From assembly GCF_907177275.1 (NCBI RefSeq), contig NZ_CAJSLV010000072.1:1-64000 (forward strand): a stretch of 64,000 nucleotides of DNA, written 5' to 3'. The position numbers were made by a program, and so were the translations under genes. The notes under the pieces were generated by a model. That model was not told the origin of the DNA and ran no database searches. It saw nothing but the letters and a program-made list of their open reading frames with translations. This DNA is from Actinacidiphila cocklensis. GTDB lineage: Bacteria > Actinomycetota > Actinomycetes > Streptomycetales > Streptomycetaceae. Shown here in pieces: positions 37,912-39,966 of this stretch (the first letter of the stretch is position 1; every line of letters starts with the position of its first letter).

Positions 37912-38826
37912 ATGAGCAGTCCGCATACCTCTGTCCCCGACCTGCCCGCCGCCGCGCTGCGGGTCTTCACCGAGGTGGCGCGGCTCGGGTCGTTCACCGC
38001 TGCCGCCCGGGAGCTGGGCTACACGCAGTCGGCGGTCTCCCGGCAGATCGCCTCACTGGAGGCGGCCGCCGGGGCGCCGCTGGTCGACCGGCTGCCGCGC
38101 GGGGTCCGGCTCACCGCGGCCGGCCACGCCCTGCTGCCGCACGCGGATGCCGTGCTCGGCCGGCTGGCCGCCGCCCGCCGGGACCTGACCGCGCTGCGCG
38201 AGCTGACCGCGGGCCGGGTCAGGGCCGGCGCCTTCGCCACCGCACAGGCCTGGCTCCTGCCGCGCGCCTACGCCGCCTTCCGCACCCGGCACCCGGCGGT
38301 TGCGGTCACCGTGCGGGAAGGTCCTTCGCACCGGCTGGCGGCCGCGGTGCTGACCGGCGACCTGGACGTGGCGGTGGTCAGCACCACGGGCAGCCCCGAC
38401 TTCGAAGGCCTCGATCTGGTCCGCCTGCTGGAGGACCCGATGCTGCTCGCGCTGCCCGCGGGGCACCGGCTGGCCGGGCGGGCCGAGGTGGCGCTCGCGG
38501 ACGTCGCCGACGAGGCCTGGGTGGCCAGCAGCCCCAGGGCCGAGGACACCCTGCTGGCGCCCGCGCTGAGCGGCGGCTTCCGGCCCCGGGTCACCCTGGT
38601 GGTGGCCGACTGGCTGGCCAAGCTGGGCTTCGTGGCGCAGGGCCTGGGCGTCACGCTGCTGCCGTCGCTCGCGGTGGGCGCGGTACGCCCGGACGTGGCT
38701 CTCGTGCCCCTGCGCCCGGACGAGCTGCCGGTGCGCACGGTCTACGCGGCCACCTGCCGCGACCTGCACAGGACGGCCGCCGCCGCGGCCTTCCTCGACG
38801 TGCTCAGGCAGAGCGCGGGGCCGTGA
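37912..38826 (+). CDS. LysR-family transcription regulator
   Basis: A 304-residue LTTR. The winged helix (ALRVFTEVARLGSFTAAARELGYTQSAVSRQIASLE) is complete and the effector domain has TAGRVRAGAFATAQAWLLPR and ...DWLAKLGFVAQGLGVTLLPS. Length and architecture are complete, unlike the deleted LysR at 58.2 kb. It most likely regulates the divergent dehydrogenase. A strong terminator hairpin follows it. Confidence 0.9.
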   Translation: MSSPHTSVPDLPAAALRVFTEVARLGSFTAAARELGYTQSAVSRQIASLEAAAGAPLVDRLPRGVRLTAAGHALLPHADAVLGRLAAARRDLTALRELTAGRVRAGAFATAQAWLLPRAYAAFRTRHPAVAVTVREGPSHRLAAAVLTGDLDVAVVSTTGSPDFEGLDLVRLLEDPMLLALPAGHRLAGRAEVALADVADEAWVASSPRAEDTLLAPALSGGFRPRVTLVVADWLAKLGFVAQGLGVTLLPSLAVGAVRPDVALVPLRPDELPVRTVYAATCRDLHRTAAAAAFLDVLRQSAGP

Positions 38827-38833
38827 GCGGAGC

Positions 38834-38867
38834 GGGACCCGGAGGTTTTGTCCATCCTCCGGGTCCC
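38834..38867 (+). terminator. LysR gene terminator
   Basis: GGGACCCGGAGG (38834-38845) and CCTCCGGGTCCC (38856-38867) form a perfect 12-bp stem with loop TTTTGTCCAT, starting 7 bases after the lysR stop. Confidence 0.8.
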
Positions 38868-38920
38868 TGAGGCGCCGCCGAAGGCCCCGCCGCACCAGTC
38901 GCGCCACGGTTCACTCTCAT

Positions 38921-38997
38921 GTCGTCTCGTTCTGCCATTGAACTACCGCCGCAGGAAAGGAGAGCGGCGGACCGGAGTCGAACCGGCACCTGACGAC
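38921..38997 (-). tRNA. tRNA-like sequence with permuted halves (3' half before 5' half)
   Basis: On the minus strand, reading 5' to 3', a T arm comes first: GCCGG-TTCGACT-CCGGT (38987 to 38971), then acceptor strand CCGCCGC (38970 to 38964) and U. After 10 bases (38962-38953) follow acceptor strand GCGGCGG (38952 to 38946), UA, and a D arm GTTC-AATGGCA-GAAC (38943 to 38929). The two acceptor strands pair perfectly over 7 bp. The flanks GTCGTC (38997-38992) and GACGAC (38926-38921) can pair as an anticodon stem. So all parts of a tRNA except the anticodon loop are present, but in circularly permuted order. It may be a permuted gene, or a fused remnant of two tandem tRNAs. No anticodon can be assigned. 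Confidence 0.5.
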
Positions 38998-39164
38998 CCG
39001 GACCATGACCGGTCGGTACGGCGGGCGACGGGCGAATGCTGAGTCTGGAGCAAGAGTCTGAGATTGACGGCGAATCGACGTCGCTCACGACGAACTTCAG
39101 TTTCAGCTTTGCGCTCCTCGCGCACCCCTCCGCACTCGGGCGGAGGGGGGTCTTGGGGTGGGAA

Positions 39165-39899
39165 TCAGCTGCTGAACAGATACCCGAGCACGGCGTCGCC
39201 GACCCGCTGGTCGGTGACCTCGGCGCCGTTCGCCTCCTCGCGGGCGAACTTCACCGCCTGCTGCAACTTCTCCACCCTGGACAGCAGTTCGTTCACCCGG
39301 CGGGCGGGCAGCGCGCCGGAGAACTTCACCGTCGTCCAGTAACCGACCGGCACGTCCTCGTAGTAGACCTCCACCTGCGCCGGGTGGTTCTCGGTCGCCT
39401 CGGCCTTCACGTGGTTGCGCGGCACCTTCCTGGTACGGATGGTGCGCACCGGCTCGGTCTTCCACGCGTCGGTCGACGGGTCGAGCGTCCAGGACTCGGC
39501 GGCGTCCAGCACCGGCAGCTTGCGGACGAAGCCGTGCAGGTCGGTCAACTGCTTCTCCAGGAACAGCAGATACGGCACCGGCACCGCGGCGACGACCACC
39601 CGTCCCTCGACGGTGACGTCGGCGCGCGCCTCGCAGTTGGCCCAGTCCTTGGTGGCGGTCACGTCGAACAGCCGGGTCAGCGCGTCCGCGGTGGCCCGCA
39701 GCGCGCCCTCCGCCTGGACCTGCACCCTCGTCGACTCGGGCGGCAGTTGCTCGCCCTCCTCGTCCTTGGGCTGGTAGGTCCTGGATATGCCGGAGAGCAG
39801 CGCGGGCTTCTGCAGATCGTGCTGAGCTGCCGTCAACTCCTGCTGCGCCTTGGCCTTGACGCCCTTCTCGACCGCGATGATCTGGTTCAGTTTCGCCAC
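39165..39899 (-). CDS. conserved hypothetical protein, 244 aa
   Basis: The predicted protein starts MAKLNQIIAVEKGVKAKAQQ. It is rich in charged helices, with a central beta part (ARADVTVEGRVVVAAVPVPY) and a helical C-terminus (VNELLSRVEKLQQAVKFARE, a coiled-coil heptad pattern). No cofactor motif is seen. GTG 39899 is chosen because the strongly conserved-looking start MAKLNQ lies there; an ATG at 39926 is possible and neither has a ribosome binding site. The protein reads as a well-conserved actinobacterial family without a known role. Confidence 0.7.
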   Translation of the reverse strand: MAKLNQIIAVEKGVKAKAQQELTAAQHDLQKPALLSGISRTYQPKDEEGEQLPPESTRVQVQAEGALRATADALTRLFDVTATKDWANCEARADVTVEGRVVVAAVPVPYLLFLEKQLTDLHGFVRKLPVLDAAESWTLDPSTDAWKTEPVRTIRTRKVPRNHVKAEATENHPAQVEVYYEDVPVGYWTTVKFSGALPARRVNELLSRVEKLQQAVKFAREEANGAEVTDQRVGDAVLGYLFSS

Positions 39900-39966
39900 G
39901 CGGCAGACCGTAACAGCACACCGCATACCCGTTCGACGGGTTTTCCCTGCTTCCCTGCGCCCGAAC

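Follow-up and report, generated by a model that had tools for sequence, protein, structure and literature searches.

A permuted tRNA-like element next to a DUF7873 gene is probably one head of a conserved tRNA-mimicking RNA

Introduction

On the minus strand of a 64,000-nt stretch of Actinacidiphila cocklensis DNA (the window), an intergenic sequence carries the 3′ half of a tRNA-like structure ahead of the 5′ half, raising the question of what it is. The initial annotation offered two readings, a circularly permuted tRNA gene or a fused remnant of tandem tRNA copies, and cautioned that the locus might be dead debris. Here we address the question by analysing the element itself, its neighbourhood and the related loci of other genomes and phages.

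Results

The permuted tRNA-like head

The element occupies positions 38921–38997 of the minus strand and is supported by sequence, fold and family covariation. Reading along that strand, the 5′ strand of an anticodon-like stem, GTCGTC (38997–38992), is followed by a T arm of 5 bp with the loop TTCGACT (38987–38971), the 3′ acceptor strand CCGCCGC (38970–38964), a linker (38963–38953), the 5′ acceptor strand GCGGCGG (38952–38946), a D arm (38943–38929) and the 3′ strand of the anticodon-like stem, GACGAC (38926–38921). The sequence thus confirms the reversed order in which the arms had been described, and the linker is 11 nt long instead of the 10 bases first counted. The minimum-energy fold of the head consists of the T arm, a 7-bp acceptor, the D arm and a 6-bp anticodon-like stem, in agreement with both pairings proposed by eye, and in the predicted fold of the window locus the 6-bp stem runs on into a long stem. 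The folding energy of the head is unremarkable (z −1.84; equalled by 10 of 200 shuffles). ARAGORN called no tRNA in the whole window, excluding a normal tRNA at the head, and no Rfam family matched the window at gathering scores, excluding a known family at that threshold.

A permuted-tRNA pattern scan of both strands of the window returned a single match, the head at 38921–38997, and the same scan of 200 dinucleotide-shuffled windows returned 8 matches, or 0.04 per window. Because of these 8 matches, the pattern taken alone is no more than suggestive. The annotation had held chance to be unlikely from the pairing across the break; the head is indeed real, but what settles this is the conservation and covariation seen in relatives. 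A search of this genome for an unpermuted copy, which had been proposed as a check, found no second match to the 18-nt 5′ half with fewer than 3 mismatches, and the sole other match to a 96-nt stretch of the locus was 28 nt long (E 0.03).

An RNA region follows the DUF7873 gene

Upstream of the head on the same strand lies a gene of the DUF7873 family (PF25283; 39165–39926 in the list of open reading frames), whose product, the presumed partner protein, matches the Pfam model over residues 11–251 with 397.9 bits (E 2.5e-119; curated cut-off 27). As its start, a GTG at 39899 appears to fit the starts of phage homologues better than the ATG at 39926. From this gene onwards, sequence and fold outline a 5′ hairpin (39125–39148), and the fold gives a second small hairpin, GCGCgaggaGCGC (39111–39123), with a matching helix in the streptomycete-group consensus described below. 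Unit 1 (39038–39107) is a long stem pairing GCUGAAACUGAAG at its start with CUUGCUCCAGACUCAGC at its end, which is present in the fold and in the 60-locus streptomycete-group consensus; it is headless, since the scan finds one module only, and in the fold a small hairpin (39079–39093) replaces the head. Unit 2 (38885–39028) combines a long stem with the tRNA-like head, and a 3′ hairpin with the loop AUGGACAAAA follows (38834–38867; sequence and fold). A LysR-type gene on the plus strand, recognized from the list of open reading frames and Pfam, ends at 38826. The 3′ hairpin had been taken for a strong terminator; it is present and possibly terminates transcription too, but it seems to belong to the RNA element, because its loop type recurs across the related loci: the sequence GGAYA or GGCTA lies in the loop at 59 of the 60 streptomycete-group loci with two modules and at 27 of the 34 viral ones, and shuffles give 1.1 and 0.4. 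The loop motif of the 5′ hairpin is weakly conserved (11/60 and 14/34 loci, against 2.75 and 1.45 in shuffled sequences).

The window copy has retained both long stems and lost the first head. In the window and in its two nearest relatives, L002 and L003, whose DUF7873 proteins are 95.6% and 91.7% identical to that of the window, the scan finds one module only after the DUF7873 gene, the 3′ side of the unit-2 internal loop deviates from UUAAACG, and the pairing of the unit-2 head is intact. Because of the absent first head and the deviating internal loop, the window copy of the RNA may be specialised or decaying.

Two units are the usual form of the RNA

As the annotation had suggested looking for the same element in related genomes, we searched 61 of them with a 96-base BLAST query and obtained matches at E 2e-8 or better in 20, this genome counted; a DUF7873 gene was present at 22 of the 30 BLAST loci fetched. 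Pfam found 40 DUF7873 genes in 37 of the 61 genomes, and all 40 had a match to the covariance model R1 (see below) 54–268 nt downstream on the same strand, with scores of at least 57.5 bits for 39 of them and 36.1 for the other. Among 217 DUF7873 loci, which include duplicates (the same genomes from two collections and near-identical viral contigs), 190 carried one to three permuted tRNA modules within 1500 nt downstream of the gene, against modules upstream in 2 and on the reverse strand in 2 of the same loci used as controls. The 27 loci without a scan module yielded 22 R1 matches at E 0.1, including one on the other strand (L081), one upstream (L214) and one 2 kb off (L068). The upstream case is an IMG/VR contig in which the RNA (L214:2172-2423) precedes the DUF7873 match instead of following it.

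Exactly two modules, usually spaced about 145–150 nt apart, were present in 119 of the 217 loci. These reduced to 109 distinct and 88 non-redundant loci, and with other thresholds to 60 streptomycete-group and 34 viral loci, for which RNAalifold returned one shared outline. Unit 1 consists of a stem (GCUGA..CUG against CAG..UCAGC in streptomycetes) and head 1, and unit 2 of head 2 and a stem interrupted by an internal loop, in which AUCGAC faces UUAAACG. In the streptomycete-group consensus, for which no anchors were used, AUCGAC is conserved above 85% and the opposite strand is more variable. The support for the unit 1 stem is weaker than that for unit 2, since it is near-invariant in the streptomycete group and aligns poorly in the viral group. 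A 5-bp helix on the anticodon side was present in 60/60, 58/60, 26/34 and 24/34 cases, a modest excess over the 46.3, 47.5, 15.5 and 17.3 obtained when partners were exchanged among loci. Judging from these alignments, the usual form of the RNA is two Y-RNA-like units of roughly 300–400 nt in total, in each of which a long stem carries a permuted tRNA head closed by a loop. The two heads of one RNA usually differ. ARAGORN made 340 calls on the viral loci, of which 11, including 8 for tRNA-Leu, have a D arm of the head 1 type AGCCCAA, numbers too small for naming the imitated tRNA.

Covariation supports unit 2 and its head

Alignment A4 covers unit 2 in 31 relatives, with the window excluded. 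It was derived from 187 module loci, of which 52 had both anchor motifs and a short linker and 32 were non-redundant; L169, cut short, was omitted. Anchor selection makes ATC and TTAAA invariant in A4, and the pairing of T stem and acceptor is partly built in because both were scan criteria. Changes on both sides were found in 29 of 33 pairs, with 95.8% of cells paired, and the covariation score reached 0.684, against 0.233 in shuffled alignments (0 of 500 reached it) and 0.12–0.16 in slid ones; no shuffle among the 500 reached A4 on any of five measures. The three outer helices, which were not selected by the scan, showed changes on both sides in 15 of 17 pairs, and in helices 1–3, where the 5′ and 3′ flanks form the long stem, 90.6–96.8% of cells were paired.

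A covariance model, R1, was built from A4. This carried out another suggested check, and R1 detected unit 2 of the window, which was not in its training set, at 81.8 bits (E 3.5e-20). Two members of A4 are traceable to the 61 genomes (L023 and L025). In the 24 genomes that have no DUF7873, R1 scored at most 53.9 bits, on the head of a Ro60-adjacent Y RNA (L035), and a tandem tRNA-Asn pair in this genome scored 43.8 bits. At E 1e-4, R1 matched 91 of 100 phage or viral DUF7873 loci and 12 of 13 further DUF7873 loci, viral and plasmid ones included, 15 of these 113 being training sequences; the other 9 phage or viral loci gave no match at that threshold.

After the acceptor, a base followed by CCA is encoded in 24 of the 60 streptomycete-group and 17 of the 34 viral first modules and in 12 of 34 viral second modules, against 3.4, 1.5 and 0.9 in shuffled linkers, and in 3 of 60 streptomycete-group second modules against 0.8. 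The window head has no encoded CCA after its acceptor. The CCA may mean that some heads undergo tRNA-like processing, or it may belong to the mimicry itself. The linker is in many cases a short hairpin loop, 4–7 nt long.

DUF7873 is common in the order of the window and in phages

In the order to which the window belongs, 92 of 197 genomes have DUF7873; in a sample taken from the whole phylum, 6 of 296 do. Among phages, homologues are carried by those of Arthrobacter, Gordonia, Rhodococcus, Pseudanabaena, Microcoleus, Vibrio, Rhizobium, Klebsiella and Prevotella. The RNA follows the gene in the Arthrobacter, Gordonia, Rhodococcus, Pseudanabaena, Rhizobium and Klebsiella phages. The Vibrio phage locus has one module with a weak R1 match (18.1 bits), the sole R1 match of the Microcoleus phage is the one 2 kb from its DUF7873 gene, and the distant homologue of Prevotella phage Lak-A1 (L277) is followed by no recognisable RNA of this kind over the 1.1 kb examined and gave no R1 match. 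tRNA genes lie near DUF7873 in the annotated records examined, those of actinophages and of the Vibrio and Rhizobium phages.

Other structured RNAs were encountered at these loci. A HEARO RNA (L068:3941-4150; 129.1 bits) lies directly 3′ of the DUF7873 gene of Microcoleus phage My-WqHQDG, and a tmRNA match of 89 bits that is absent from the listed annotation falls within the tRNA array of Gordonia phage Phendrix (L062:1063-1591). In Klebsiella phage vB_KpM_FBKp24, an annotated tRNA-Sup(TTA) (L278:3018-3097) overlaps the 3′ half of the second permuted head and is probably a misread head of the DUF7873 RNA.

The predicted structure of DUF7873 (mean pLDDT 92.9, pTM 0.66) consists of long helices and a beta region. 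The protein alignment, A3, was reduced from 57 sequences to 50 by removing L204 and L222, which contain a stop codon, and L133, L180, L236, L241 and L247. Searches of PHROGs and PADLOC with DUF7873 proteins gave no match; the best hit of a sequence profile search of the PDB was a RelA/SpoT protein at E 0.074, and Foldseek against the PDB found no confident relative (best E 0.056). The best match listed by VIA was 3kdq_A (Z 9.1, rmsd 8.9, 148 aligned), the listed matches being mostly short helical overlaps, and BFVD gave one match below E 0.001, unnamed and with TM-scores of 0.22 and 0.20. The PDB, viral and defence libraries yielded no confident relative and no known RNA-binding fold. Pfam assigns the protein to DUF7873 only, and no Ro60 appears among the Foldseek and VIA matches listed, which does not speak against a kinship with Ro60. 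None of the papers searched mentions DUF7873 or PF25283. It is the genomic linkage that makes DUF7873 a putative RNA-binding protein.

Relation to Y RNAs and Ro60

At a lax threshold, the best Rfam match in the window is YrlA (‘Y RNA-like’, RF02553), a bacterial Y RNA whose protein partner is Rsr, a Ro60 orthologue. The match reaches 27.8 bits (E 0.00048), and that of a viral relative 34.9 bits (E 5.6e-6) over the whole model, both under the gathering score of 69. However, the one Ro60-adjacent Y RNA tested also stays below 69, at 41.2 bits, so the YrlA cut-off discriminates poorly here. In this genome YrlA also matches the junction of two tandem tRNA-Asn genes (L264, C47:27881-27992); surveys of genomes may therefore count too many YrlA RNAs because of such spurious matches.

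The Ro60 domain TROVE was found in 28 of the 61 related genomes, including 24 of the 37 with DUF7873 and four without it; in the other 13 DUF7873 genomes none was found at the sensitivity of that search. The two genes co-occur more often than expected by chance (DUF7873 in 24 of 28 Ro60 genomes against 13 of 33 others; p 0.0002, within the order 0.016, both ignoring kinship), so that DUF7873 may share a role with Ro60. Permuted modules stand upstream of the gene in 14 of 30 TROVE loci fetched, and in 13 of the 30 the Y RNAs match R1 over the head only, at positions 30–117. Here, the Ro60 gene is on another contig than DUF7873 (C58 and C71), and what appears to be a headless Ro60-type Y RNA stem (L053:482-595) precedes it, the gene starting near L053:682. 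Within the available flanks, Ro60 is present at 2 of 221 DUF7873 loci and absent at 219. Both of these are IMG/VR contigs (L224:2-1525 and L082:4604-5742) in which DUF7873 and its RNA have a Ro60 gene in their vicinity; the one in L082 is preceded by three Y RNAs of the Ro60 type. Based on the partial co-occurrence, the head-only matches and the two viral loci with both, the DUF7873-RNA and Ro60 systems are separable yet seem akin.

Discussion

Comparison among relatives establishes, at the level of sequence, the two-headed RNA and its linkage to DUF7873. The element in the window is probably the tRNA-mimicking head of unit 2 of a structured non-coding RNA that lies just after the DUF7873 gene. 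That a conserved structured RNA is encoded here seems nearly certain from the covariation, and the linkage makes DUF7873 very likely to be its partner, whereas the chances that the RNA works as a tether or decoy by tRNA mimicry look evenly balanced to us. The RNA is best classed among the tRNA mimics of the Y RNA kind, here with a presumed partner that is new, and not among permuted tRNA genes.

Both readings of the initial annotation appear very unlikely in this light. Debris of tandem tRNA genes, or a chance pattern, could give such a signature, as the tandem tRNA-Asn genes of this genome do and as the rate in shuffled windows (0.04 matches each) illustrates, and the caution about debris was to that extent well placed. 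However, such debris is not the origin here: no unpermuted copy was found in the genome, the position beside DUF7873 and the compensatory changes are conserved in many genomes and phages, and a loss of pairing, looked for in L002 and L003, was not seen. Least probable of all is a circularly permuted tRNA gene that splicing would restore, like those of algae and archaea. Its reversed halves and perfectly pairing acceptor strands are present, but the strands past the anticodon-like stem pair as a covarying long stem, as in Y RNAs, with no anticodon loop, and the RNA usually carries two different heads.

Two further explanations, both improbable in our view, accept the RNA and differ on its use. 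The heads might be cut at the linker by RNase P and 3′ processing enzymes, giving tRNA-like CCA ends that may be aminoacylated, as in two-piece tmRNA; this would suit the excess of a base plus CCA over shuffled linkers in first and viral second modules, but the CCA is present in just 3 of 60 streptomycete-group second modules and missing from the window, many linkers are hairpin loops of only 4–7 nt, and this genome has a normal tmRNA (170.1 bits). We regard as marginally less probable still an ordinary Ro60-bound bacterial Y RNA (YrlA) with DUF7873 as a mere neighbour. In its favour, no Rfam family is nearer than YrlA, and Ro60 occurs in this genome, is shared by 24 of 37 DUF7873 genomes, a co-occurrence above chance, and lies in the flank of two DUF7873 loci; against this stand the 13 of 37 DUF7873 genomes with no TROVE at the sensitivity of the search, the 219 of 221 loci with no Ro60 in the available flanks, and the Ro60 loci's own Y RNAs, which in 13 of 30 loci match R1, and then just in the head, and are represented in this genome by an apparently headless one.

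In the preferred reading, a DUF7873 partner with a tRNA-mimicking RNA, DUF7873 would bind the RNA at the unit-2 internal loop, at the 3′ hairpin or at both, and the heads would hold an enzyme that recognises tRNA; PNPase is one candidate, and enzymes that process, modify or repair tRNAs are others. Such a particle would resemble Ro60 with YrlA in acting as a tRNA-mimicking tether or decoy, but with a different protein. Phages often carry the gene among tRNA genes, and there the particle would most likely serve to protect, replace or turn over tRNAs during infection. A bolder and distinctly tentative proposal, which we think more likely wrong than right, is that DUF7873 and the two-headed RNA form an undescribed ribonucleoprotein that is a counterpart of Ro60 with Y RNA, disseminated by large phages and retained in streptomycetes, and that its heads, of which some encode a CCA, interact with the machinery that maintains tRNAs, for example by protecting or replacing tRNAs that host defences cut during infection. 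If the preferred reading holds, mimicry by loop-capped permuted tRNA heads would not be tied to Ro60, and the module, used with another protein, would span phages of very different hosts and many streptomycetes. It would also provide a defined protein–RNA pair, with a conserved internal loop, two heads and a 3′ hairpin, for asking what bacterial tRNA-mimic RNAs bind, and the DUF7873 RNA may account for some odd tRNA annotations in phage records.

No such RNA appeared among the listed matches of literature searches on Y RNAs, permuted tRNA and tRNA mimics, and earlier surveys may contain one. Among known systems, YrlA is the closest. In the description given in PMC8394870, its ends form a stem and its tRNA-like domain has D, T and acceptor arms in permuted order, and the DUF7873 RNA resembles it, judging from that account and the Rfam alignment, in having a stem made by its ends and a permuted tRNA-like domain. 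T, acceptor and D arms are common to both, the acceptor being closed by a linker. Unlike YrlA, the DUF7873 RNA usually has two units, another stem and a conserved 3′ hairpin, and DUF7873 instead of Ro60 is next door; the long stem is likewise not common to it and the Y RNAs of local Ro60 genes. The two-piece permuted tmRNA, as presented in PMC10085705, also has a permuted tRNA-like domain and is in this sense a comparable bacterial RNA, but in the DUF7873 RNA a short linker joins the acceptors and the nearest Rfam family is YrlA. GOLLD and ROOL are described in PMC12286853 as large structured RNAs often near phage tRNA islands, and the DUF7873 RNA, too, is large and structured and often has phage tRNA genes near; an identity with either was rejected, with no Rfam match to them in the window or the 12 loci scanned. 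With the permuted tRNA genes of algae and archaea, finally, the head shares a 3′ half that precedes the 5′ half, but it differs from them in having no anticodon loop and in flanks that form a long stem.
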